DNA of 64,000 bases from Rhizobiales bacterium GAS188 (GTDB taxonomy: Bacteria > Pseudomonadota > Alphaproteobacteria > Rhizobiales > Beijerinckiaceae): positions 2,914,001-2,978,000 of the forward strand of contig FNSS01000001.1 in the NCBI GenBank assembly GCA_900104855.1, written 5' to 3'. Positions within the stretch are counted from its first letter, which is position 1, and the number at the start of each line of letters is the position of its first letter. The position numbers and the translations under genes are program-made. The notes under the pieces are model-generated. The model did not search any database. It was not told the DNA's origin and worked only from the letters and a program-made list of their open reading frames with translations. Shown here piece by piece: positions 45,493 to 58,623 of the stretch.

Positions 45493-46107
45493 TCACCCGG
45501 GCTGACGAGTCGGTCGGCCGGCCAATGCCCGGACGACGGATTGGACCTGGCGACGCGCCGCCGAATGGCTTCGCGAGGTGTCGATGACGAAATGGGCGCG
45601 GTTGCGCTTCTCGGCATCGGGCATCTGGCGGCGCAGGATGGCGTCGAACCGCTCCTGCGTCATGCCGGGACGCGCGAGCACCCGCTGGCGCTGGGCGGCG
45701 GCCGGCGCGCTGACCACGACGACGGCGTCGCAACGCGCCTCACCGCCAGTCTCGAACAGCAACGGAATATCGAGCACAGCGATCTGCGCCCCGGCGGCGC
45801 CGATGCTGTCGAGGAAGCTGCGCTCTTGCAAGCGCACCAGGGGATGCACGATGGCTTCGAGCCGACGAATCGCCGATTGGTCGGCGAGCACGAGATGCGC
45901 GAGCCGTTCGCGATCGACGGTGCCGTCGCACACCGTTCCGGGGAATGCCTGCTCAATCAACGGCGCGGCTTCGGCCGAGTAGAGCCGCGCCACCACTTGG
46001 TCGGCATCGAAGACCGGCACGCCGAGGCGGCGGAAATTCTCGGCCGCCGTGGTCTTGCCCATGCCGATCGAGCCGGTCAGTCCGAGGATGAAGGGCCTGG
46101 AGCGCAT
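45493..46107 (-). CDS. coaE: Dephospho-CoA kinase
   Basis: CoaE phosphorylates dephospho-CoA, the last step of coenzyme A synthesis. The 204-residue P-loop kinase has [12 protein letters not shown] at the N-terminus, [12 protein letters not shown] and [12 protein letters not shown], the family blocks, then [33 protein letters not shown] in the lid region. It lies seven bases downstream of aroE on the same strand, in the origin-proximal series dnaQ-coaE-aroE-maf. The first pathway enzyme, CoaA, is encoded in the same window at 25.5 kb. Confidence 0.97.
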
Positions 46108-46113
46108 GGTGGC

Positions 46114-46953
46114 TCAACTATGCCCGGTCGCGATGTCGGCGGCCACTCGGCGATAGAGCGCCTCGGTCACCAGCGGACGCCGGCCGAACCAATGCTCGAA
46201 GCCCGGGACGGCCTGATGGAGCAGCATGCCGAGGCCCCCGACCGTTTTGCGTCCCATGCGACGCGCCTCCCGCAAAAGCGGCGTTTCGAGCGGAACATAG
46301 ACGATATCCGTGACGAGCGCGTCGGCTTTGAGGCGGTCGATCTCGAAACCATGATCGGGCTGCCCGACCATGCCGAGCGACGTGGTGTTGATGAGGAGAT
46401 CGATGTCGGGGAGCATCTCCGGCAAGCGGTCGAGCGTCATGATCTCGATGCGGCGCGCTTGACCCGCCACGAGCGCTGCCGCCCGCTCGAGCGTGCGGTT
46501 GGCGATCAGGATGCGCTCGACGCCGCAGCTCGAGAGGGCAGCCAGGATGGCTCGCGTCGATCCGCCGGCGCCGAGGATCAGGGCGGTTCGGGTGGAAGCG
46601 CGCCAGCCCGGGGCCTCATGATCGAGATTGGCGAGAAAGCCGTGCACATCGGTGTTGTCGCCATGCAGGCGGCCGCGCTCGTCGAGCCAGATCGTGTTGA
46701 CGGCCTCGAGAGCGCGGGCAAGCTCCGTCGTCTCATCCACGAGACGGAAGGCGGCTTCCTTATGCGGCAAGGTGACGTTGCAGCCGACATAGCCATGCGC
46801 TGCGAGCCCGCGAAGGAAGCCTGCAAGCTCCGCCGCAACGACATGGCGGCGCTCATAGACACCGGCAATGCCGAGCTCCGTGAGCCAGAAGCCGTGCACG
46901 AGAGGCGATCGCGAGTGCGCGATCGGATCGCCGATGACGCAGGCCCGCTTCAC
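46114..46953 (-). CDS. aroE: Shikimate dehydrogenase
   Basis: AroE reduces 3-dehydroshikimate with NADPH in aromatic amino acid synthesis. The 279-residue protein has IGDPIAHSRSPLVHGFWL (shikimate-binding serines), NVTLPHKEAAFRLVDE (catalytic lysine), the NADP loop LILGAGGSTRAILAAL and the NRT phosphate motif. It starts at GTG 46953. The downstream gene coaE follows after seven bases. Confidence 0.97.
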   Translation of the reverse strand: MKRACVIGDPIAHSRSPLVHGFWLTELGIAGVYERRHVVAAELAGFLRGLAAHGYVGCNVTLPHKEAAFRLVDETTELARALEAVNTIWLDERGRLHGDNTDVHGFLANLDHEAPGWRASTRTALILGAGGSTRAILAALSSCGVERILIANRTLERAAALVAGQARRIEIMTLDRLPEMLPDIDLLINTTSLGMVGQPDHGFEIDRLKADALVTDIVYVPLETPLLREARRMGRKTVGGLGMLLHQAVPGFEHWFGRRPLVTEALYRRVAADIATGHS

Positions 46954-46987
46954 GGCGCGGCCTTCCGATGGAGATGCGGTCGAGGCG

Positions 46988-47629
46988 TCACAACTGCATG
47001 AGCCCGGCGGAGCGCAGATAGCGCAGGAGGCCGGTCAACGGCAGGCCCAATATGGTTGCGTGATCACCCTCGACGCGCTCGAACAGCAGCCGCCCGATAC
47101 TCTCGATCCGATAGGCGCCGACGCTCGCCAGCACCTCTTCTCCGGCTGCATCGAGATAGGTCTTGATCTCCGCATCGGTGAGCGTCCGCATGGTCAGCTC
47201 GGCAGTCTCGACGGCCTCGAACAGGATTGTGCCGTCGCGCGCCACCGCACAGGCGCTGACCAGAAGATGCGTCTGCCCGGCGAGCAGGCGCAATCGCTCC
47301 GCGGCCGCAGCGAGATCGGCGGATTTCGCGAGCGGCCGGTCGTTGAAGGTGAGGATCTGGTCGCCGCCGAGCACATAGCGCCCGCGGGCCTGTGCGGAAA
47401 CGGCGCAGGCCTTCGCGGCCGCGAGACGGCGCGCCAAGGCACAAGCGGCGGCGCCGCGCGAGAGCTCCTGCGCCTCGATGGCGCGTTCATCGAGATCGGC
47501 CGGCATCAGCTCGGCCAAGATGCCGAAAGCCGAGAGCAGAGCGCGCCTCGCCTCACTGCGCGAAGCGAGGATGAGCGGCTTCTCGCCAGCCCAGATTTGG
47601 CCTTCTTGAATTTTGCCCTGCGAGGCCAT
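46988..47629 (-). CDS. maf: Maf-like nucleoside triphosphate pyrophosphatase
   Basis: Maf proteins hydrolyse non-canonical or canonical nucleotides to monophosphates. The 213-residue sequence shows LILASRSEARRALLSAFGI, the catalytic LGGDQILTFNDR (D in GGDQ) and GAYRIESIGRLLFERVEGDHATILGLPLTGLL. The ILASRSxxR..LL form with FND is the alphaproteobacterial second Maf type. Its ATG lies one base from the end of ppsR upstream, so the two are co-translated or nearly so. It is part of the conserved segment to the left of the origin. Confidence 0.95.
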   Translation of the reverse strand: MASQGKIQEGQIWAGEKPLILASRSEARRALLSAFGILAELMPADLDERAIEAQELSRGAAACALARRLAAAKACAVSAQARGRYVLGGDQILTFNDRPLAKSADLAAAAERLRLLAGQTHLLVSACAVARDGTILFEAVETAELTMRTLTDAEIKTYLDAAGEEVLASVGAYRIESIGRLLFERVEGDHATILGLPLTGLLRYLRSAGLMQL

Positions 47630-47630
47630 T

Positions 47631-48461
47631 TTATTCGACGATGAATTTGAGCCGATGAGCCCGGTAGAAATCGATGATGGTTGCGGCGGTCTCCTCGATG
47701 GAGCGGCGCGTCACATCGATGACGGGCCAGGAATGCCGGGCGCAGAGCCGCCGCGAGGCCGCGATCTCCTCGGCGACCGCATCGCGATCCACATAGGACG
47801 TGTCGCTCGCCGCATTGAGCGACAAGAGCCGGTTCTGGCGGATCTGCACGATACGCTCGGGCGTGGCGACGAGGCCGACCACGAGGGCGCGCCTGGCATT
47901 CTCGATGCCGTTGGGCGGTGGGATTCCAGGGACCAGCGGGATATTGGCGGTCTTGATGCCGCGATTGGCGAGATAGATGCTGGTCGGCGTTTTCGATGTC
48001 CGGCTGACGCCGACCAGGATGACATCGGCCGAGTCGAAATCCTCCGGCAAATGGCCGTCATCATGCATCATCGTGTAGTTGAGGGCGTCGATGCGCTTGA
48101 AATAGTCGGCGTTCAGCACATGCTGGGCTCCGGCACGCGGCGTCGTTTCCGTGCCGAGATAGGCGCCGAACAGGTCCGAGACCGGCTTGAGGACCGAGAA
48201 GGACGGGCAGCCGAACTGCCGGCAATCCTCCTCGAGCTTTGCCGATAGTTCGGTATCGACCAGGGTGTAGAGCACGATTCCGGGCTCGCGCTCGATCTCG
48301 CCGAGCACCCGGCCAAGCTGATCGCTGGTGCGCACCAGCGGATAGACATGCTCGATGGCCGAGACGCCCGGATAGAGGGCGGAGGCCGCGCGGCTCAAGG
48401 CGATCAGCGTCTCGCCCGTCGCATCCGAGACGAGATGCAAATGGAAATAGCTGCGGCTCAT
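47631..48461 (-). CDS. ppsR: Pyruvate,phosphate dikinase / PEP synthase regulatory protein (DUF299, RP001 homologue)
   Basis: This is a bifunctional serine/threonine kinase and phosphorylase of the DUF299 family that switches PPDK or PEP synthase off and on. The 276-residue protein starts [19 protein letters not shown] at ATG 48461 (a longer frame to 48650 lacks homology) and carries the P-loop-like [18 protein letters not shown]. Its homologue is the RP001 gene that flanks the replication origin opposite hemE in Caulobacter and Rickettsia. Here too it is divergent from hemE across 411 bases. The target enzyme gene is not in this window. Confidence 0.95.
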
Positions 48462-48498
48462 TCGGGCCGCCGCAAGGGCGCCGGGAGTCCCGACAGGC

Positions 48499-48507
48499 TG
48501 TGGATTG
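48499..48507 (-). promoter_or_regulatory. DnaA-box-like site 1
   Basis: Read on the - strand it is CAATCCACA, two mismatches from TTATCCACA but keeping the TCCACA core. Confidence 0.4.
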
Positions 48508-48649
48508 CTGTGCGCAATTGAGGATCGGAGCCGAGCATGGCGTCTTCCCTTGCATGGCGGGCGAAACTCTTCAACAGGATCGCGGCGAGCGCCGTCTTTG
48601 CGGCGCCGTGCGGGAGTTCGGCGAAGTGCCACGGCCTCTGTGCGTCGCA

Positions 48650-48658
48650 TGTCGATAA
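48650..48658 (-). promoter_or_regulatory. DnaA-box-like site 2
   Basis: Read on the - strand it is TTATCGACA, one mismatch from the TTATCCACA consensus; the best candidate in the gap. Confidence 0.5.
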
Positions 48659-48759
48659 CTTCGCCGTACTTGTCTTTATCACCTTGTTATTGAAAGGTTT
48701 TCAGAGGGTGCGCAACACGACGGGCTGCGCTGCGCGTTGAGCGAGTGAACCGCATAGTC

Positions 48760-48768
48760 GGTGCATAA
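48760..48768 (-). promoter_or_regulatory. DnaA-box-like site 3
   Basis: Read on the - strand it is TTATGCACC, two mismatches from the consensus, next to the AT-rich stretch. Confidence 0.35.
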
Positions 48769-48872
48769 GCGATGGAGTGCGCTTCTCACCGGTTTTTGCC
48801 CCCTAACAATAAAAACAAAAGGGAATCAGACTTGATTTGATTCTTGAAGGAGCATGGCGCATTGACCTCGTC

Positions 48873-49928
48873 ATGCCTCCGATAAAGCCGATGCTTACCG
48901 TGCTCGATGGGATGAGGGTCGAGCCGCCGCCGATCTGGCTGATGCGCCAGGCGGGCCGCTTCCTCCCCGAATACCGGGCGCTGCGGGCGAAGGCCGGAAG
49001 CTTCATGGAATTCGCCTATGATCCGGCGCTCGCCTGCGAGGCGACGCTGCAGCCGATTCGCCGTTTTGGCTTCGATGCGGCGATCCTGTTCTCGGACATC
49101 CTGGTGGTGCCCGATGCATTGGGTTGCAAGGTGAGCTTCGCTGAAGGCGAGGGACCGCGTCTCGAGCCGATCAGCGACGCGAAGGGGCTTTCTCGTGTGG
49201 CGGAGGAGGTCGATCTCCAAAGGCTTTCGCCGGTCTTCGAGACGATCTCGCGGGTCAAGCGGGACTTGCCGGACGCCTGCACGATGCTCGGCTTTTGCGG
49301 TGCTCCCTGGACGGTCGCGAGCTATATGATCGCCGGACGCGGGACCCCCGATCTCGCTCCGTCGCGGCTCTTCGCCTATCGCTATCCACAGGCCTTCACG
49401 GAGCTGATCGACCGGCTGGTGAAGGCTTCGATCGCGTATCTCGTGCGCCAGCTCGAGGCGGGCGTCGAGGCCGTGCAGATCTTCGAGAGCTTCGCCGCTG
49501 CCATACCGAGGCCTTTCCTCGAGCCGTGGTCATGGACGCCGATCCGGCGCATCGTCGACGGGGTGCGGGCGAAAGTGCCGGGGGCGCGCGTGATCGTGTT
49601 CATCAAGGGTGGGAGCGGCACGCCGGCCGAGGTCGCCGAGGCGACGCGAGCCGATGCGCTCGGCATCGACTGGACGATCGATCCGCTTGATGCCGCAAGA
49701 GGCGGGTCACCGGTGGCGCTGCAGGGCAATCTCGATCCTTTGGCGCTGGCCGCGGGTGGAGAGGCGCTGGAGCGTGGGGTCGAGCAGGTCTTGGCGGGCT
49801 TTGCCAAGGTGCCCCATATTTTCAACCTCGGCCATGGCATCATTCCCGAGACGCCGGTTGAAAATGTCGAGCGCCTTATGAGGTTGGTGCGGAACGGTAA
49901 ATATTATTCACGTAAGAGCGGAACATGA
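48873..49928 (+). CDS. hemE: Uroporphyrinogen decarboxylase
   Basis: HemE decarboxylates uroporphyrinogen III to coproporphyrinogen III. The 351-residue protein carries the substrate-binding WLMRQAGRFLPEYR block (residues 22-35), DAAILFSDILVVPDALG and the C-terminal LGHGIIPETPVENV motif. ATG 48873 gives the family length. A strong GAAGGAG (48846-48852) lies ~20 bases upstream, too far for normal use, and an out-of-frame ATG at 48854 opens a four-codon frame, so the true start or mode of initiation is uncertain. hemE forms the right boundary of the predicted origin and overlaps hemJ by four bases. Confidence 0.95.
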   Translation: MPPIKPMLTVLDGMRVEPPPIWLMRQAGRFLPEYRALRAKAGSFMEFAYDPALACEATLQPIRRFGFDAAILFSDILVVPDALGCKVSFAEGEGPRLEPISDAKGLSRVAEEVDLQRLSPVFETISRVKRDLPDACTMLGFCGAPWTVASYMIAGRGTPDLAPSRLFAYRYPQAFTELIDRLVKASIAYLVRQLEAGVEAVQIFESFAAAIPRPFLEPWSWTPIRRIVDGVRAKVPGARVIVFIKGGSGTPAEVAEATRADALGIDWTIDPLDAARGGSPVALQGNLDPLALAAGGEALERGVEQVLAGFAKVPHIFNLGHGIIPETPVENVERLMRLVRNGKYYSRKSGT

Positions 49929-50353
49929 TGACGTATAATGTCGTTAAATCGCTGCATATTATCAGCATTATTGCCTGGATGGCTGGGCTTTTATACTTGC
50001 CACGATTGTTCGTCTACCATTCGCAATTGTCGGCAGGCTCGGATGCGCGGAGCACCTTCGAGACGATGGAGCGACGGCTGTTGAAGGCGATCATGCTGCC
50101 GGCGATGCTGGCAAGCTGGGCCTTCGGGATCTGGCTCGCGACGCTGCTCGGAGCCTGGGCGCAAGGCTGGCTGAATGCGAAGCTGCTGCTCGTGCTCATC
50201 CTGTCGGGCATGCATGGTTTCCTGGCGCGCGAGGCGCGGCGCCTGGCGCAAGGTGGTCAGCCGCGGCCGACGAAATTCTATCGCATGATCAATGAGGTGC
50301 CGACCCTGATCCTGATCGGGGCGGTCTTCCTGGTGGTGCTGAAGCCGTTCTAA
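49925..50353 (+). CDS. hemJ: Protoporphyrinogen IX oxidase HemJ
   Basis: HemJ is the membrane-bound protoporphyrinogen oxidase used by most Alphaproteobacteria lacking HemG/HemY. The 142-residue protein has four predicted membrane helices and the conserved N-terminal LHIISIIAWMAGLLYLPRLFVYH, with H11 the likely haem/proton ligand, and GWLNAKLLLVLILSGMHG plus MINEVPTLILIGAVFLVV. Its ATG overlaps the hemE stop (ATGA 49925-49928), so two haem enzymes are translationally coupled. Confidence 0.95.
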   Translation: MMTYNVVKSLHIISIIAWMAGLLYLPRLFVYHSQLSAGSDARSTFETMERRLLKAIMLPAMLASWAFGIWLATLLGAWAQGWLNAKLLLVLILSGMHGFLAREARRLAQGGQPRPTKFYRMINEVPTLILIGAVFLVVLKPF

Positions 50354-50371
50354 GGGTTGTGGCGCTCCCTT

Positions 50372-50394
50372 ACCTCTCCCCTTGTGGGAGAGGT
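50372..50394. repeat. BIME-like palindrome, single hairpin (copy 4)
   Basis: One CTCTCCCCTTGTGGGAGAG hairpin lies 18 bases after the hemJ stop, without a partner half. It may end or trim the hem transcript; no T-tract follows. Confidence 0.75.
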
Positions 50395-50680
50395 GGGGGC
50401 TCGCCAAGCGGAACCGTTTTACGGTCGAACTGGCGTTGCCGCGGAGTGGAAAATTCGCCGGGCGGCGTTTTGAAGAGTGAAACCTGCTCCTTGTGCAATG
50501 CAAGAAAAGTCGCTATGTAGGAATGGCGCGGTCGGTTCTTCGGCCGTGTTTCTCATCGACTGTTGGAGTTCGGCGGCCCCGCGCCGCATCAGCCTAGAGG
50601 CTCCTGAACTCCAATACGTGCGATCTTCCCGGATCCATTCCCGCTTGCGTCACGTGAACGCGGCGTCCAAGGTCTAAGCA
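50395..50680 (+). other. rho leader region, no gene seen
   Basis: About 290 bases precede rho with no supportable coding sequence. rho mRNAs often have long autoregulated leaders in proteobacteria, so this stretch may be an attenuating leader; that is inference from position only. Confidence 0.4.
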
Positions 50681-51946
50681 ATGGCGGAAATCAAACTTCA
50701 TGATTTGAAGGGCAAAAGCCCTACAGAGCTCTTGGCATTTGCCGAAGAGCTCAAAGTTGAAAATGCAAATTCCATGCGGAAGCAGGAATTGTTATTTGCG
50801 ATTCTCAAACAACAAGCGGCCAATCAGGTCGAAATTATTGGCGAAGGCGTCGTCGAGGTGCTGCAGGACGGCTTCGGATTCCTGCGCTCGCCGGAAGCGA
50901 ATTATCTCGCGGGACCAGACGACATCTATGTCTCGCCGTCGCAGATCAGGCGGTTCGGCCTGAGGACGGGCGACACCGTCGAAGGTATGATTCGCAGCCC
51001 GAAGGAGGGCGAGCGTTATTTCGCCCTGCTGAAGGTTAATTCGATCAACTTCGAGGACCCCGAGAAGGTGCGCCACAAGGTGCATTTCGACAATCTGACG
51101 CCGCTCTATCCGGATAAGAGGCTGCGGCTCGAGATCGAGGATCCGACCAAGAAGGATTTTTCGGCGCGCGTCATCGATATCGTGTCGCCGATCGGCAAGG
51201 GGCAGCGCGCCCTGATCGTCTCGCCGCCGCGCACCGGCAAGACGGTGCTGCTGCAGAACATCGCCCAATCCATCACCAGCAATCATCCGGAGAGCTATCT
51301 GATCGTGCTGCTCATCGATGAGCGGCCCGAGGAAGTGACCGATATGCAGCGCTCGGTGCGCGGCGAGGTCGTGTCCTCGACCTTCGATGAGCCGGCTTCG
51401 CGCCATGTCCAGGTTGCAGAGATGGTGATCGAAAAGGCGAAGCGCTTGGTCGAGCACGGGCGGGACGTGGTGATCCTGCTCGATTCGATCACGCGCCTCG
51501 GGCGAGCCTACAACACCGTGGTGCCGTCTTCGGGCAAGGTGCTGACGGGCGGCGTCGACGCCAATGCGTTGCAGCGGCCGAAGCGCTTCTTCGGTGCGGC
51601 GCGCAATATCGAGGAGGGCGGCTCGCTGACGATCATCGCGACCGCGTTGATCGATACCGGCAGCCGCATGGACGAGGTGATCTTCGAAGAGTTCAAGGGA
51701 ACCGGCAATTCGGAAATCATCCTTGACCGCAAGGTTTCGGACAAGCGGACCTTCCCGGCGCTCGACATCACCCGGTCGGGAACGCGCAAGGAAGAGCTGC
51801 TGGTGCCGCCCGAAGTGCTCAAGAAGATGTATGTGCTGCGTCGGATCCTTAACCCGATGGGAACGGTCGATGCGATCGAGTTCCTGCTGGACAAGCTGCG
51901 CCAGACGAAGACCAATGCGGACTTCTTCGAGTCGATGAACACTTAA
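50681..51946 (+). CDS. rho: Transcription termination factor Rho
   Basis: Rho is the hexameric RNA-dependent ATPase/helicase that terminates transcription. The 421-residue protein has an N-terminal Rho_N helix bundle ([19 protein letters not shown]), an RNA-binding cold-shock-like domain ([37 protein letters not shown]), the Walker A loop [11 protein letters not shown] (K187), Walker [17 protein letters not shown] and the Q/R-loop region. The length is the typical ~420. The first ~50 codons are visibly more AT-rich than neighbouring genes. Its place beside hemE-hemJ to the right of the origin is conserved in Alphaproteobacteria. Confidence 0.98.
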
Positions 51947-51953
51947 GGCATCG

Positions 51954-51978
51954 CGGCCGCGAGGGGGCGGCCGAATTT
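51954..51978 (+). terminator. Possible rho 3' hairpin
   Basis: A seven-base GC stem (CGGCCGC at 51954-51960 with GCGGCCG at 51967-51973) and a six-base loop are followed by AATTT, starting eight bases after the rho stop. The T-tract is poor, so this is a weak intrinsic terminator at best. Confidence 0.3.
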
Positions 51979-51997
51979 GCCTGGTGGGGGTTTGACC

Positions 51998-52297
51998 TTG
52001 TCCGAAGGGCCGGAGCGATGCGCATTATGCGGGCGCTTGATCCCGGCGCATGCACGGGCGAGCCGGCATCATCTCGTGCCGAAATCGGAGGGCGGGGCCC
52101 GGTTCGGCACTGTGCGGCTGCATCAGATCTGCCACAGCGCGATCCACGCTCGATTCAAGGAGAACGAGATCGGGGGCAAACTGAGCCGCATCGAGGATTT
52201 GCGTGCGGATCCCGAATTGGCAGGATTTCTGCGATGGATTCGCGACAAGCCGGACGATTTCCACGCCCCCACCTATCCGATGCGGAAATTGCGCTAG
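51998..52297 (+). CDS. Small HNH-type nuclease-like protein
   Basis: This is a 99-residue protein with an HNH/zinc-finger core: CALCGRLIP (CxxC), then RHHLVPKSEGGARFGTVRLHQICHSAIHARF, i.e. paired histidines, H-x-x-C-H and a following IH, the metal-binding betabetaalpha pattern. The tail LRWIRDKPDDFHAPTYPMRKLR is basic. The start is uncertain: TTG 51998 follows a GGTGGGGG run; TTG 51992 and 51977 are upstream options. It stands alone between rho and a BIME repeat, ahead of mnmE. No methyltransferase or restriction partner is present, so its role is unknown. Confidence 0.8.
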   Translation: MSEGPERCALCGRLIPAHARASRHHLVPKSEGGARFGTVRLHQICHSAIHARFKENEIGGKLSRIEDLRADPELAGFLRWIRDKPDDFHAPTYPMRKLR

Positions 52298-52318
52298 CGT
52301 TGAGCCTCGGCGGCTCCC

Positions 52319-52522
52319 ACCTCTCCCCTTGTGGGAGAGGTCGGCTTCGAAGAGCGAAGCGATGAGAAGCCGAGTGAGGGGGGGGGCAGCGCCGACTCCC
52401 GAAGGGCTCGCTATCTTTGGACCGGAAAGACCACGTTTGTCCGGCTTGCGAAGCAGGATCTGCCCCCCTCACCCGATCCTCGCCTGGCGGCTCGGATCGA
52501 CCTCTCCCGCAAGGGGAGAGGT
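52319..52522. repeat. BIME-like composite palindrome (copy 5)
   Basis: The left hairpin is 52319-52341 and the right, inverted, 52500-52522. The left tail is a third subtype (CGGCTTCGAAGAGCGAAGCG...GAGTGAGGGGGG); the right tail is the GATCCGAGCC..AGGCGAGGATC subtype. The right end, GGGGAGAGGTGAG, lies only ~9 bases before the mnmE ATG and so provides its purine-rich ribosome site. Confidence 0.85.
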
Positions 52523-52534
52523 GAGCGCGGCGCT

Positions 52535-53848
52535 ATGAGCGACACCATCTTCGCGCTGTCTTCGGGGCAGGGGCGAGCCGGTATTGCGGTGATTCGCATG
52601 AGCGGCCCCGGCGTGAGGGTTGCATTCCAGCATCTGTGCGGAAAAGTGCCGGAGCCACGCAAGGCGAGGCTGATGGCGGTCAAGGATCCGCAGGACGGGT
52701 CGTTGATCGATAGGGGGATCTGCCTGTTCTTCGCCGGGCCGCGCAGTTTCACCGGAGAGGATATGGGGGAGTTCCAGCTCCATGGCGGACGTGCCGTGGT
52801 TGCCGGATTGTTGGCTGCTCTCGGCAAGCTGCCGGGATTTCGGCCCGCAGACGCCGGCGAATTCACACGGCGAGCCTTCGTCAATGGCCGCCTCGATCTC
52901 GTCGAGGTTGAGGCCTTGGGGGATGTCATCAACGCCGAGACGAAGGGCCAGCTGAAGCTGGCGCAGCGCCTGGCGGGCGGCGACCTGTCGCGGCGCATCC
53001 AGGCCTGGCGCGACGAGCTCGTCTCGGCGATGGCGCTCGTCGAAGCCTTGATCGATTTCTCGGATGAAGCGGATGTGGACGAGGATACGGATGCGCCGGT
53101 GACTCGGCGGGCCGAGGCCGTTCTGCGCGATATCGAGCAGGTTTTGGACGATCAGGGGCGCGGCGAGCGCTTGCGGGACGGGGTGGGGGTGGTGATCGCC
53201 GGGCCACCCAATGCCGGGAAGTCGACCTTGTTGAATCTGCTGTCGCGACGGGAGGCGGCGATCGTGTCGCCGATCGCCGGGACGACGCGAGACGTGATCG
53301 AGGTGCAGCTTGATCTCGCGGGCGTTCCGGTAAGCTTGGCCGACACGGCGGGATTACGGGAGGGTGGCGATTCGATCGAGAGCATCGGTGTCGAGCGCGC
53401 CCGCGCCCGCATCGCGGGAAGCGACCTCGTGCTTTGGCTCGAGCCGGCGGGCGAAGTTGCGGTGCAGGCGCCTTTTCCAGGCGTAGCGGTCATCCGGGTG
53501 GCGACGAAGGCCGATCTTGCCAAGGACGCTTTGCCGCCGGATGGCATCAGCGTCAGCGCGGTGACGGGTTTTGGCATCGAGGAGCTGGTGAGGGTCTTGA
53601 CGGAGCGCGTGCGCGACCTTGCCGGTGCCAATGAGAGCGTGCTGATCACACATGCGAGGCAAAGGTCCGGGCTGAGCGCTTGTGCCAAGGAATTGCGCGG
53701 ATTGCTGGCCCAGGGGTCGGGCGAGGGTGCGGAGCTGCGGGCGGAGCGGTTGCGTTTGGCGATCCGGGCGCTGGAACGCTTGAGCGGCCGGGTGGATGTC
53801 GAGGATGTGCTGGGGGAGATCTTTGCGAGCTTCTGCGTCGGGAAGTGA
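52535..53848 (+). CDS. mnmE: tRNA modification GTPase MnmE
   Basis: MnmE, with MnmG, adds carboxymethylaminomethyl groups to U34 of certain tRNAs. The 437-residue protein has the N-terminal tetrahydrofolate-binding domain (DTIFALSSGQGRAGIAVIRMSGPG), a helical domain interrupted by the G domain (P-loop AGPPNAGKSTLLN, K229; DTAGLREGGD switch) and the C-terminal CVGK ending essential for activity. ATG 52535 is the family start; the frame open back to 52331 reads through the repeat. The stop is followed immediately by a parS site. The partner gene mnmG is 374 bases downstream. Confidence 0.97.
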   Translation: MSDTIFALSSGQGRAGIAVIRMSGPGVRVAFQHLCGKVPEPRKARLMAVKDPQDGSLIDRGICLFFAGPRSFTGEDMGEFQLHGGRAVVAGLLAALGKLPGFRPADAGEFTRRAFVNGRLDLVEVEALGDVINAETKGQLKLAQRLAGGDLSRRIQAWRDELVSAMALVEALIDFSDEADVDEDTDAPVTRRAEAVLRDIEQVLDDQGRGERLRDGVGVVIAGPPNAGKSTLLNLLSRREAAIVSPIAGTTRDVIEVQLDLAGVPVSLADTAGLREGGDSIESIGVERARARIAGSDLVLWLEPAGEVAVQAPFPGVAVIRVATKADLAKDALPPDGISVSAVTGFGIEELVRVLTERVRDLAGANESVLITHARQRSGLSACAKELRGLLAQGSGEGAELRAERLRLAIRALERLSGRVDVEDVLGEIFASFCVGK

Positions 53849-53864
53849 TGTTTCACGTGAAACA
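53849..53864. promoter_or_regulatory. parS: parS centromere site 1
   Basis: TGTTTCACGTGAAACA is a perfect 16-base palindrome identical to the parS consensus bound by ParB. It begins one base after the mnmE stop codon, about 5 kb from the predicted origin. Confidence 0.95.
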
Positions 53865-53891
53865 TCGGTTGGTCAAAAGGGCGCCGAGCTC

Positions 53892-54091
53892 ACCTCTCCC
53901 CTTGTGGGAGAGGTCGATCCGAGCCGCCAGGCGAGGATCGGGTGAGGGGGGCAGCAGCTGCTTCGGAAGCCGGGGCAAGGCCGCCATTCTGCGTGCCAGG
54001 GTCAGCGCGGGTCTTGGAAAGCTGGCGCTGCCCCCCTCACCCGGAGCCCTCGCTTCGCTCCGGCTCCGACCTCTCCCACAAGGGGAGAGGT
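53892..54091. repeat. BIME-like composite palindrome (copy 6)
   Basis: Left hairpin 53892-53914 and inverted right hairpin 54069-54091. Subtypes are swapped relative to copy 3: the GATCCGAGCC tail is on the left and the CCGGAGCGAAGCGAGGGCTCCGG tail on the right. It occupies most of the mnmE-mnmG gap (53849-54222), which has no gene. Confidence 0.85.
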
Positions 54092-54222
54092 GGGCGCTGG
54101 TGCTGGAGATGTTGGAGCAAGCTTCAACCAACTATTCGCCAACATTTGGCTTGCGACGCAAGAATCGAGCGGGACTGCCCCTTGTCTCTTGAACGCCGCC
54201 GCGGCCATGCTTAGGACAGGGA

Positions 54223-56097
54223 ATGACGAGCTTTGATGTGATCGTGATCGGCGGCGGGCACGCCGGGACCGAAGCTGCGGCAGCTTCGGCCCGGATGGGT
54301 GCGCGTACGCTGTTGCTGACCTTGCGGCGCGAAGCGCTGGGCGAGATGTCATGCAATCCGGCGATCGGCGGCATCGGTAAAGGTCACCTTGTCCGCGAGG
54401 TCGACGCCTTCGACGGCGTGATGGCGCGCGCCGCCGATCTCGCAGGCATCCAATTTCGGGTCCTCAATCGGCGCAAGGGTGCGGCCGTCAGAGGGCCGCG
54501 GGCCCAATGCGATCGTGCGCTCTACCGGCAGGCCGTGCAGCGCCTGCTCGCCAAGACCGACGGCTTGGCGATCGAGGAGGGCGAGGCGGCGGATCTCGAT
54601 ATTGTCGAGGGCGAGGTGCAGGCCGTGATAACGACCGATGGGCGGCGTTTTGCCTGCGGCGCGGTGGTGGTTACCACCGGCACGTTTTTGCGCGGGCTCA
54701 TCCATATCGGGCCGGTCAAGATTGCGGCCGGTCGGATCGGGGAGGCGCCTTCGGTTGGGCTGGCGAAGCGCTTCGCGAGCCTCGACCTGCCGCTCGGGCG
54801 CCTGAAGACCGGAACACCGCCGCGCCTGGACGGACGTTCCATCGATTTCGAGGGGCTCGATGCGCAATTGGGGGACGAAGCCCCGGAAATGTTTTCGGTG
54901 GACTCGCCTGGGCCGGTCAATCGGCAAGTGCCTTGCCATGTGACCCGCACGACGGCCGCTACACATCAGGTAATCCGGGACAACATTGCGCAAGCTCCTG
55001 TATTCTCAGGCGATATCGCCGGGCGGGGGCCGCGCTATTGCCCGTCGATCGAAGACAAGGTGGTCCGCTTCCCGGACCGGGAGAGCCACCAGATCTTCCT
55101 TGAGCCCGAAGGGCTCGGCACCCATTGGGTTTACCCGAACGGGATTTCCTCATCGCTTCCCGAGGAGGTCCAGCGGCAGTTCCTGGCGACGATCCCGGGC
55201 CTCGAGACTGCCCGGATGCTGCGGCCCGCTTATGCGATCGAGTACGACTATATCGATCCGCGCGCATTGCGGCCGAGCTTGGAGGCGAAGGCGGTGCGAG
55301 GACTGTTCCTGGCAGGACAGATCAACGGCACCACCGGTTATGAGGAGGCCGCCGGCCAAGGGCTTCTCGCCGGGATCAATGCGGCGCGCCGCGCGGCGGG
55401 CGGGGAGGGCGTGATCATCGCGCGCAGCGAGGCCTTCATCGGCGTGATGGTCGATGATCTGGTCACCAAGGGAGTGACCGAGCCTTATCGGATGTTCACC
55501 TCGCGCTCCGAATATCGGTTGAGTTTGCGCGTCGATAATGCGGATGAGCGGCTGACCGGGCGAGCGATCGAGCTCGGCTGCGTGCGGCCTGCGCGCGTCG
55601 CAACGCACGCAGCACGCATGGCCAAGCTCGGAGACTGGCGGGCGCGGCTGCAGAATCTCGCCGTCACGCCGAGCGCGGCGGCGCGCAGCGGTGTGGCGTT
55701 GAATGCGGACGGCGTGCGGCGCTCGGCCTTCGAGCTCCTATCCTATCCGGGCATTGATCTCTCCATGCTGCGACGGATCTGGCCGGAAGTCGCCGAAATC
55801 GACACAGCTCTCGGCGAGCGTCTGGTCACGGATGCGCGGTACGCGGTGTATCTCGACCGGCAAAGGGAAGATATCGCGAGCTTCGAGCAGGAGGAGGGGC
55901 GCCGCTTGCCCCCGGGTCTCGTATTCGACGCAATGCCGGGCCTTTCCAATGAGTTGCGGCAGAAATTGGCGCAGATCCGCCCCGAAACATTGGGTCAGGC
56001 GAGCCGAATCGAGGGCATGACGCCTGCGGGTCTTGCCATCCTGGCATTGAACAGCCGGGCCGCCGAGGCGGCGAGGGCTCCGCAGCAGAGCCTATGA
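54223..56097 (+). CDS. mnmG: tRNA uridine-5-carboxymethylaminomethyl modification enzyme MnmG
   Basis: MnmG (GidA) is the FAD-dependent partner of MnmE. The 624-residue protein has the dinucleotide loop [12 protein letters not shown] at the N-terminus, [48 protein letters not shown] (with the conserved cysteine) and [21 protein letters not shown], all diagnostic. The C-terminal helical domain ([30 protein letters not shown]) is intact. Its stop overlaps the rsmG start as ATGA (56094-56097). Confidence 0.98.
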
Positions 56098-56804
56098 TGG
56101 CGCGCAGTGGGGTGGAGAGAGGGGCAGCGCAAGGGGCGGCCTTCATCGACGCGCTGCAACAGGACCGCGAGCGCGCCATTGCGGCTCTCGATGTTTCACG
56201 TGAAACAATCGCGCGCCTCGATCTCTATGTGGGTCTTCTCCTCAAATGGCAGAAGGCCATCAACCTCGTCGCGCCCTCGACCCTGCCTGCCATCTGGACC
56301 CGTCATATTCTCGACAGTGCGCAAATCGCCGATCTCGGCGCCGAGCACCGGTTGTGGGCCGATCTTGGCGCTGGCGCGGGATTTCCCGGCATGGTCATCG
56401 CGCTTATGCAGCAATCCCGGCATCCCGATTGCACCGTCCATCTCGTCGAAAGCGACCGACGCAAGGCGAGTTTCCTCATGGAGGCCGTCCGAATCAGCGG
56501 CGCGCCGGCGATCGTCCATGCCGACCGCATCGAGACTGTGGCGGCCTCACTGGCAGGCCGCGTCACGGCCGTCACGGCCCGGGCTCTCGCCCCCTTGCCG
56601 AAACTGCTCGAACTCGCCGAACCCCTGTTGACAAGTGGCGCGGACGGTTTCTTTCCCAAGGGGCAGGCGTTAGACTCGGAAATCGAGCAAGCCTTGACGC
56701 TCTTCAGATTCGACATGCGGCTGGTGCCAAGCCGGACCGAGACGAGCGCCAAGATCGCCGTCATTCGGGCATTCAGGCGCCGCGAAGCGTCGCTCGACAG
56801 GTAA
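56094..56804 (+). CDS. rsmG: 16S rRNA (guanine527-N7)-methyltransferase RsmG
   Basis: RsmG (GidB) methylates G527 of 16S rRNA. The 236-residue protein has [31 protein letters not shown] and the SAM-binding [18 protein letters not shown], the family signature. A perfect parS site is embedded in the coding sequence and read as DVSRETI (residues ~33-39). The start overlaps mnmG (ATGA); parA begins four bases after its stop. Confidence 0.97.
56192..56207. promoter_or_regulatory. parS: parS centromere site 2 (inside rsmG)
   Basis: This is a second perfect TGTTTCACGTGAAACA, 2.3 kb from the first and 0.6 kb upstream of parA. It is within codons of rsmG, so both the centromere and the protein sequence are under selection here. 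Confidence 0.95.
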
Positions 56805-56807
56805 GGG

Positions 56808-57650
56808 ATGATGACGATGAGCCTCGAAGGCACGCGCCCGCCGCGCATTCTGACAGTCGCCAACCAGAAGGGCGGTGTCGGCAAGACGACCACGGCAATC
56901 AATTTGGGCACGGCGCTTGCGGCTATCGGCGAGGAAGTCCTGCTTGTCGATCTCGATCCGCAAGGCAATGCGTCGACAGGGCTCGGGATCGACCATAAGA
57001 GCCGCGAGGTCTCGACCGCGGATGTCCTGACCGGACGCGCCACGATGCGTGAAGCGATCATCGACACCAGCGTTCCGCGCCTTGCACTTGCGCCGTCGAC
57101 GCTCGATCTCCTGGGCGTGGAGCTCGAAATCGCTGGGGATCATGAGCGCGCCGTGCGGCTCAAGAAAGCCTTGCAGGCGCTGGGCGATGGTCGCCCGCAA
57201 CGCAGCCTCAGCTATATCCTGATCGATTGCCCGCCTTCGCTCAATCTTCTCACCATCAACGCGCTCACCGCGGCGAATGCCGTCGTGGTGCCGCTGCAGT
57301 GCGAATTCTTTGCGCTGGAAGGCTTGAGCCAATTGCTGCGCACGGTCGAGCAGGTCCGCCAGAGCCTCAATCCGGAGCTGGTGATCCAAGGGATCGTGCT
57401 CACCATGTACGATCCCCGCAACAAGCTCTCCGGTCAGGTCGTGGCCGATGTGCGCGAATTCATGGGGTCAAAGGTCTATGAGACGGTGATCCCGCGCAAT
57501 GTGCGGCTGTCGGAAGCCCCATCCTACGGCAAGCCGGCACTGCTCTACGATCTCAAATGCTCCGGCAGCCAGGCCTATCTCAAACTCGCCTCCGAGCTGA
57601 TCCAGCGCGAGCGCGCCGATCATGCTCGCGATTTCGCGGTGCTGTCGTGA
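56808..57650 (+). CDS. parA: Chromosome partitioning ATPase ParA
   Basis: ParA is the deviant Walker ATPase that, with ParB-parS, segregates new origins. The 280-residue protein has TVANQKGGVGKTTTAINLGTALA (signature K21, P-loop K26), VLLVDLDPQGNASTGLG (Walker A') and YILIDCPPSLNLLTINAL (Walker B). Starts at 56808, 56811 or 56817 are all methionines in frame. It lies four bases after rsmG, and parB follows after ~80 bases with a half BIME between them. Confidence 0.97.
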   Translation: MMTMSLEGTRPPRILTVANQKGGVGKTTTAINLGTALAAIGEEVLLVDLDPQGNASTGLGIDHKSREVSTADVLTGRATMREAIIDTSVPRLALAPSTLDLLGVELEIAGDHERAVRLKKALQALGDGRPQRSLSYILIDCPPSLNLLTINALTAANAVVVPLQCEFFALEGLSQLLRTVEQVRQSLNPELVIQGIVLTMYDPRNKLSGQVVADVREFMGSKVYETVIPRNVRLSEAPSYGKPALLYDLKCSGSQAYLKLASELIQRERADHARDFAVLS

Positions 57651-57732: not shown

Positions 57733-58623
57733 ATGATGGCTGAAGACGCGCAACGCTCGAGACTCGGACGCGGCCTTGCCGCGCTGATCGGCGACGTCAC
57801 GGCCGATACGGCTCCGGCGCGGCCGGATGCCGCGGGGCCGCGACGCGCTCCTGTCGAGATGCTGCGGCCAAATCCCCGCAATCCGCGGCGCAGCTTCGAC
57901 GATACCGAGCTCGACGAACTCGCGAGCTCGATCCGCAGCAAGGGGTTGATCCAGCCGATCGTGGTACGCCGCGTGCCGGGACAGGTGTCGCAATTCGAGA
58001 TCATCGCCGGCGAGCGCCGCTGGCGCGCCGCGCAAAGGGCAGGCCTTACCGACGTGCCGATCGTCGTCGTCGAGGCCGATGACCGTACATCGCTAGAATT
58101 CGCGATCATCGAGAATGTCCAAAGGGCCGATCTCAACCCAATAGAAGAGGCAATCGGTTATCAAAACCTGATCGGCGAGTTCACCTATACGCAAGCGGAC
58201 TTGGCGGAATCGGTTGGAAAGAGCCGCAGCCATATCACCAATACGCTCAGATTGCTGAAGCTGCCGGAGGATGTCCAAGCTCTGCTCAGCGATGGCAGCC
58301 TTTCGGCCGGCCATGGTCGGGCCTTGCTGGCCGTTGCGGATCCCTCGAGCGTCGCCAAACGGGTGGTGAGCAACGGCCTCAGCGTCCGTGAGGCCGAGGA
58401 AATCGCCCAGCGCGAGGCGCGCAAAGAACGGCCAGCGCCGGCGCGGCCGCCCGAAGCCGATGAGCCCGATGGCCGCGCCGACATCGCGGCGCTCGAGAAG
58501 GCGCTCGAAAGCTATCTCGGCTTGCCGGTCGCCATCCGGCACGGCGCGCAGGGCGGCGAGCTGCGCATCCGCTACCGCACTGTCGAGCAGCTCGACGGGA
58601 TCTGCAAAAGCCTGACGGGGTGA
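57733..58623 (+). CDS. parB: Chromosome partitioning protein ParB
   Basis: ParB binds parS, spreads as a CTP-dependent clamp and recruits ParA. The 296-residue protein has an N-terminal ParA-contact segment (RLGRGLAALIGD), the CTPase/ParB_N domain with IAGERRWRAAQRAG (GERR motif) and EFAIIENVQRADLNPIEEA, the helix-turn-helix region TQADLAESVGKSRSHITNTLRLLKLP and a C-terminal dimerisation domain (ALEKALESYLGLPVAIRHG). Two parS targets are present within 4 kb. It is convergent with holA. Confidence 0.97.
   Translation: MMAEDAQRSRLGRGLAALIGDVTADTAPARPDAAGPRRAPVEMLRPNPRNPRRSFDDTELDELASSIRSKGLIQPIVVRRVPGQVSQFEIIAGERRWRAAQRAGLTDVPIVVVEADDRTSLEFAIIENVQRADLNPIEEAIGYQNLIGEFTYTQADLAESVGKSRSHITNTLRLLKLPEDVQALLSDGSLSAGHGRALLAVADPSSVAKRVVSNGLSVREAEEIAQREARKERPAPARPPEADEPDGRADIAALEKALESYLGLPVAIRHGAQGGELRIRYRTVEQLDGICKSLTG

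Follow-up and report, generated by a model that had tools for sequence, protein, structure and literature searches.

The 411-base gap between the divergent genes ppsR and hemE is very probably the single replication origin of the 8.2 Mb chromosome of Rhizobiales bacterium GAS188, and an origin of the Caulobacter Cori type. The stretch analysed here (the window) comprises 64,000 nucleotides and corresponds to bases 2914001-2978000 of contig C1 (8,203,471 bases), in a genome of 9.09 Mb in three contigs; the gap, at window positions 48462-48872, is C1:2962462-2962872. An earlier note on this DNA had predicted an origin in this place, and the prediction is supported by the polarity of a KOPS-like octamer, by k-mer asymmetry and by boxes that are kept within the genus. 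If so, a large chromosome (8.2 Mb) has its origin placed, in a genome that carries three initiator genes. A whole-genome search finds the gap sequence to be single-copy, and a second origin copy was rejected on this ground. The features to which we refer are as follows.

47631..48461, minus strand: ppsR (RP001/COG1806 homologue), left flank (Pfam PF03618, E 1.1e-87; NCBIfam NF003742)
48462..48872, no strand: predicted chromosomal origin, Cori-type ppsR-hemE gap (divergent flanks conserved, length in the range of relatives, boxes, strand-asymmetry axis)
48499-48507, minus strand: DnaA-box-like 9-mer 1, CAATCCACA (2 mismatches to TTATCCACA; 7/9 positions invariant in three genus genomes)
48571..48577, plus strand: TCAACAG element (present in 58/90 distinct gaps, against 1.9 in shuffles)
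48650-48658, minus strand: DnaA-box-like 9-mer 2, TTATCGACA (1 mismatch to TTATCCACA; 8/9 invariant in three genus genomes)
48676..48690, plus strand: loose CtrA site TTATCACCTTGTTAT, 197 bases before hemE (also fits the IHF pattern WATCAN5WTR from 48677)
48687..48701, plus strand: overlapping loose CtrA site TTATTGAAAGGTTTT, 186 bases before hemE (half-sites 11 bases apart)
48760-48768, minus strand: DnaA-box-like 9-mer 3, TTATGCACC (2 mismatches to TTATCCACA; 8/9 invariant in three genus genomes)
48785..48847, no strand: AT-rich strip beside hemE, candidate unwinding region (AT 62%; partly conserved in the genus; two GANTC sites, at 48823 and 48839)
48873..49928, plus strand: hemE, right flank (Pfam PF01208, E 9.3e-107; TIGR01464)
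53849..53864, no strand: parS 1, TGTTTCACGTGAAACA (exact 16-mer)
56192..56207, no strand: parS 2, TGTTTCACGTGAAACA (exact 16-mer)
56808..57650, plus strand: parA (Pfam AAA_31, CbiA)
57733..58623, plus strand: parB (Pfam HTH_ParB, ParB_N, ParB_C)

The divergent flanks and the switch of gene direction, both read from the sequence in the earlier note, are borne out by the ORFs and by Pfam, and for ppsR and hemE by NCBIfam as well. According to Pfam, the minus strand to the left of the gap carries coaE-aroE-maf-ppsR, and the plus strand to its right carries hemE-hemJ(UPF0093)-rho-ORF-mnmG-ORF-parA-parB, in which the two unnamed ORFs (52331-53848 and 56094-56804) sit at what we take to be the usual positions of mnmE and rsmG. 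The start of hemE is uncertain, because a three-codon ORF (ATG GCG CAT TGA, 48854-48865) in a frame other than that of hemE (48873) directly follows a GGAG stretch. Local GC skew is high (0.04-0.16 in 2 kb windows) at 46000-56000, over and to the right of the gap. The partition system that had been noted nearby is indeed there: Pfam identifies parA and parB, both parS sites are exact, and at up to one mismatch the genome holds exactly these two sites, 5.0 and 7.3 kb to the right of the gap, with none for a reversed-pattern control.

We compared the gap with its counterparts in relatives. Searches with hemE gave 80 loci from named genome contigs (the best hemE matches, e.g. Microvirga and Chelatococcus) and 29 from family genomes (60 genomes searched, the 30 best loci minus the window genome's own). 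Out of the 109 loci we kept the 96 in which a divergent ppsR lies less than 1.5 kb from hemE, making 97 gaps with that of the window; with the gap of the congeneric genome G002 (L217) there are 98 entries and 90 distinct gap sequences. The other 13 loci were dropped for want of a ppsR match, and some of them end close by. Six of the dropped loci (L132, L141, L144, L179, L182 and L183) are from Methylocystis, Methylosinus and Methylocystaceae and have 6-10 kb of upstream sequence; the origin neighbourhood may be rearranged in these loci. Gap length is 354-679 bases in 96 of the 97 gaps and 1114 in the remaining one. In the 90 distinct gaps there are 110 DnaA boxes at up to one mismatch, against 5 in shuffles, and the cores lie on one strand (TGTGGA 184 times against 10 in shuffles, TCCACA 19 against 6). 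GANTC is likewise abundant (530 against 209). The TCAACAG element has a single orientation and lies 91-131 bases from ppsR in 41 of the 58 gaps that contain it; it might be a weak DnaA box of opposite direction or a leader element of ppsR.

The three DnaA-box-like 9-mers of the window's gap that had been reported in one orientation are confirmed, all on the minus strand. None is perfect and two of the three have 2 mismatches. When the gap is dinucleotide-shuffled 2000 times, 1.6% of the shuffles hold at least three boxes at up to 2 mismatches, so that the count is modestly above chance for the gap alone. The 9-mers are convincing because their positions are conserved in the genus. We compared the window with the congeneric genomes G001 (gap sequence the same as L107) and G002 (the same as L108), whose gaps are 53% and 58% identical to the window's; the remaining congeneric genome in the set, G003, gave no hemE match. 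Across the three genomes, 23 of the 27 bases of the 9-mers are invariant, against 176 of the 411 bases of the whole gap, and equal invariance is reached by 1% of 20000 random triples of 9-mers. Loss of the boxes in close relatives, named beforehand as a finding that would speak against the origin, was thus not seen in these two congeneric genomes, in which the box places are kept; the 9-mers there are no nearer to the consensus than in the window's genome. The AT-rich stretch beside hemE stood up as well: AT is 62% at 48785-48847 and 58% at 48640-48705, against 42% for the gap and 34% for the window. Over the whole genome TTATCCACA is scarce, with 13 occurrences against 35 for a reversed control. 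Two perfect DnaA boxes lie 517 bases apart on one strand at C1:615803-616328, far from the dnaA genes; we read the sequence of this pair as a candidate origin and rejected it, with nothing origin-like visible.

We placed the gap on the replication axis from a sample of 100 evenly spaced 20 kb tiles of C1, with extra tiles near the gap and its antipode. The KOPS-like octamer GGGNAGGG has forward:reverse counts of 105:53 on the arm 2.962-7.064 Mb and 42:104 on the other (100 tiles). In a step fit to its polarity, which none of 200 permutations equalled, the origin falls at 2.55-2.64 Mb (bootstrap interval 2.38-3.21 Mb) and the terminus at 6.98-7.06 Mb (bootstrap interval 6.57-7.39 Mb). The polarity flips at 7.03 Mb, with counts of 44:9 in ten fetched tiles (6,808,823-7,032,890), 3:45 in the next eleven and 7:14 in the following seven. 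This point is almost opposite the gap on the 8.20 Mb chromosome, with arms of 4.069 and 4.135 Mb (49.6/50.4%). A dif-like 28-mer at 7,031,503 has 14/22 of the E. coli dif arm matches and 7/11 arm pairs. It is a dif candidate only, because other strings in the same four tiles match the arms equally (14-15 matches, with fewer arm pairs). A strict dif pattern (up to 2 mismatches) had no match, and a search of the sampled tiles for the E. coli dif 28-mer at 19/28 matches or more gave two strings, neither near 7.03 Mb.

A symmetric axis scan over all k-mers (k=6, 7 and 8, both statistics) is best at the tile that holds the gap. Shuffled tile orders equal or beat this peak in 19 and 22 of 300 cases (k=6 and 7), so the height of the peak is marginal and its place informative. 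If the terminus is kept fixed and the arms may differ in length, the top-scoring origins are scattered over 0.5-5.4 Mb, and the gap tile is outside the eight best listed. GC skew, which had been proposed as a check, is faint (arm means +0.0096 and -0.0028), and its outcome was divided. By eye, the cumulative curve has its minimum at 2.64-2.80 Mb and its maximum at 6.8-7.1 Mb; a two-arm step fit speaks against the prediction, with its origin at 4.03-4.11 Mb (bootstrap interval 2.55-4.44 Mb) and none of 200 permutations equalling it. The KOPS-like polarity and the k-mer asymmetry place the origin-terminus axis at the gap or close to it. To within a few hundred kb on the side of the origin, the gap lies at the strand-asymmetry origin, with the terminus opposite; the GC-skew step fit disagrees. 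Composition alone narrows the origin at best to a few to several hundred kb around the gap; for its exact place we rely on synteny, motifs and parS. Within these limits, the axis comes directly from the computation, as do the position, conservation and motif content of the gap.

The genome has three full-length, intact dnaA genes, at C1:2.281 Mb, C1:4.443 Mb and C3:96 kb, of which the nearest on C1 is 0.68 Mb from the gap. The gene and some 0.6-0.75 kb of upstream DNA are 92-96% identical between the copies and the flanks beyond differ, so that promoter and gene are triplicated together; dN/dS between the copies is 0.06-0.12, which would fit purifying selection. Their Walker A region reads AAVGLGKT; that a Walker A search pattern, too strict for it, matched none of the three carries no weight. 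By eye, the 2.28 Mb copy follows an apparent rpsT end and the 4.44 Mb copy lies with an rpsT remnant, rpsT being presumably the usual neighbour of dnaA. The third copy shares its contig with a RepC gene; C2 and C3 have one RepC match each and C1 has none, and C2 and C3 therefore look like repABC replicons. Among 99 family genomes, three dnaA matches occur only in the window's genome, G010 has two fragments and the rest have one; G003, of the same genus, has two different matches that are partial and overlapping. Of 72,556 plasmid records, 34 have a dnaA match, several of them of chromosome size. The genome of 9.09 Mb compares with 4.7-4.9 Mb for three drafts of the same genus.

These dnaA genes offer another place for the origin: the only origin, or a second one, could adjoin the copy at 2.28 Mb or that at 4.44 Mb, and the hemE gap would then be a relic or just a promoter region. 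We consider this improbable. The dnaA promoters do contain better DnaA boxes than the gap, one perfect and one with a single mismatch; such boxes are usual in dnaA promoters, where they serve autoregulation. An arrangement of this kind has been proposed for Ochrobactrum anthropi, and passages of PMC4403523 put forward putative double origins at dnaA and hemE. The GC-skew step fit favours 4.03-4.11 Mb, and with the terminus fixed (k=6) the tiles at 4.43 and 2.21 Mb score 1.81 and 1.67, where the best scores 2.09. In the symmetric scan at k=6, however, 2.21-2.30 Mb reaches 1.23-1.25 and 0.33 Mb, the axis of 4.43 Mb, reaches 1.15, against 1.81 for the gap; with the terminus at 7.03 Mb, origins beside dnaA would divide the chromosome into about 58/42% or 32/68%, and parS and parAB are located at the gap.

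Less probable still is an origin elsewhere within a few hundred kb, with the motifs of the gap regulating ppsR and hemE only. A held-out mapping of local k-mer changepoints has its minimum at 2.755 Mb (k=5 to 8), and the interval of the KOPS fit likewise admits a nearby origin. We judge the local changepoint to be dominated by gene direction; it is therefore unusable for exact placing, and still counts against exactness. Against such an origin, DnaA cores, CtrA boxes and GANTC are all concentrated in the ppsR-hemE gap across relatives, and the Caulobacter homologue of the gap is a mapped origin, as a section of PMC1914354 describes.

We thus favour the ppsR-hemE gap as the origin, and its working may be pictured by analogy with the Caulobacter model. 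DnaA would bind and assemble on the short one-orientation array of weak boxes, open the AT-rich strip adjoining hemE and so initiate replication. We further infer bidirectional forks, which would depart both ways, in each case co-directionally with the flanking genes, and converge near 7.03 Mb, and capture by ParB, with the neighbouring parABS system segregating the copies.

CtrA boxes, which the earlier note had not seen in the gap, call for a distinction. The observation stands for TTAA-N7-TTAA, which is absent from the gap at up to one mismatch, but not for looser sites: two overlapping TTWW-N7-TTWW sites start at 48676 and 48687 and together read TTAT-N7-TTAT-N7-TTTT (48676-48701), and the whole window has 3 such sites on both strands. 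At least two loose sites occur in 0.2% of 5000 mononucleotide shuffles; the sites carry two or three substitutions, where a published rule allowed one. They align under the position of the perfect TTAA-N7-TTAA in relatives. The other two gaps of the genus have no TTWW-N7-TTWW site on the hemE-direction (plus) strand. The IHF pattern has its one match in the gap where 3.5% of shuffles would have one; that the CtrA and IHF patterns overlap as a common trait was rejected, with 1 of 90 gaps, the window's own, showing it. Repression by CtrA at the two loose sites is possible, and would probably be weaker than in relatives with perfect boxes. The genome encodes a CtrA orthologue (81% to a receiver-domain query), whose ORF continues through a C-terminal half of full length, and the 3369 bases of the ctrA neighbourhood have no CtrA box at up to one mismatch. 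Over the sampled part of the genome TTAA-N7-TTAA has 8 occurrences, where spacers 5, 6, 8 and 9 have 1-2; as the AATT-N7-AATT control reaches 5, this enrichment is no more than suggestive.

In relatives, the perfect TTAA-N7-TTAA is present in 68 of the 97 gaps, against 0.78 in dinucleotide shuffles, and in 20 of 24 gaps of family genomes outside the window's genus. The distinct gaps hold 92 perfect boxes in 39,260 bases (62 of 90 gaps), and the flanks of 61 loci hold 1 in 1,237,945 bases; being mostly coding, these flanks differ from a matched intergenic control, so that the shuffles and other spacers are the fairer controls. Spacers 3 to 12 other than 7 give 0 to 35 matches in the gaps (35 for spacer 3, 19 for spacer 6). 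About 190 or 130 bases before hemE lie 61 of the 92 perfect boxes. The box is found in 30 of 35 Microvirga-named gaps, a large share of the set, and in 32 of 52 other gaps outside the window's genus, among which gaps without a genus name are counted, or 62 of 87 in all, whereas the window's genus has it in 0 of 3 distinct gaps. As a sequence motif, the perfect CtrA box is thus strongly concentrated at the presumed origin gaps of relatives, despite a 2015 review (PMC4468827), a passage of which limits CtrA sites to the origins of Caulobacter species and possibly Rickettsia and reports none in most others. Predicted CtrA sites at the origins of Wolbachia and others have already been published, next to some predicted origins without them, in parts of PMC1914354, and a section of PMC7200025 reports from ChIP that CtrA binds close to the Hyphomonas origin. 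The accessible parts of the open-access literature yielded no report of CtrA boxes at origins of the window's family. The comparative set makes gain or loss of a regulator at origins testable among close relatives.

The genus differs at dnaA, too. All five promoters examined (three of the window's genome, that of G001 and one of G003, with G002 and the second of G003 left out) carry a perfect CtrA box, TTAATTTYCGDTTAA, about 500 bases before the start, followed after 13-15 bases by a one-mismatch DnaA box, (A/C)TATCCACA. For comparison, 18 dnaA promoters from outside the genus were picked out of 96 genomes. A perfect CtrA box occurs in 2 of them, at a different place, and a one-mismatch box lies 500-600 bases before the fetched end (the estimated start) in 7; the genus site may therefore be an old one that was strengthened. 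A tentative scenario, which we regard as possible rather than likely, is that CtrA control of the origin is widespread in relatives and in this genus moved from the gap to the dnaA promoter. The perfect origin box would have decayed to weak sites or to none, a perfect CtrA box beside a DnaA box would have arisen or strengthened in the dnaA promoter, and initiation would be timed through initiator supply instead of by blocking the origin. The scenario would fit the data of the genus, which comprise three gaps and three promoter genomes and perhaps one evolutionary event each. In the window's genome the promoter and gene exist in triplicate, with one copy on a repABC-like replicon. The kind of origin is already known; the shift of CtrA from origin to dnaA is the new and unproven part.

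Of the known systems, Cori of Caulobacter crescentus holds a dual CtrA/IHF site, and likewise one site in the window fits both patterns; the DnaA sites of the gap, however, differ from the G and W boxes of Cori. Parts of PMC1914354 and PMC4468827 describe for Cori the same hemE-COG1806 flanks, an AT-rich strip and weak DnaA sites, and the weak G and W boxes described in PMC4468827 are of a kind with the window's weak boxes. Cori has five CtrA sites according to PMC1914354, in contrast to the window's gap with no perfect box. The predicted origins of Rickettsia and Wolbachia, as treated in part of the same paper (PMC1914354), share the hemE flank, a length of about 400 bases, DnaA boxes and CtrA sites of the loose TTWW type, but their AT content is much higher, at about 70-83%, and that of Wolbachia has a different second flank. 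The gap also resembles the ppsR-hemE gaps of relatives (family genomes and others such as Microvirga and Chelatococcus), which agree in position, length, one-strand DnaA boxes, TCAACAG and GANTC, and from which the gaps of the window's genus are set apart by the perfect TTAA-N7-TTAA that most of those relatives carry.
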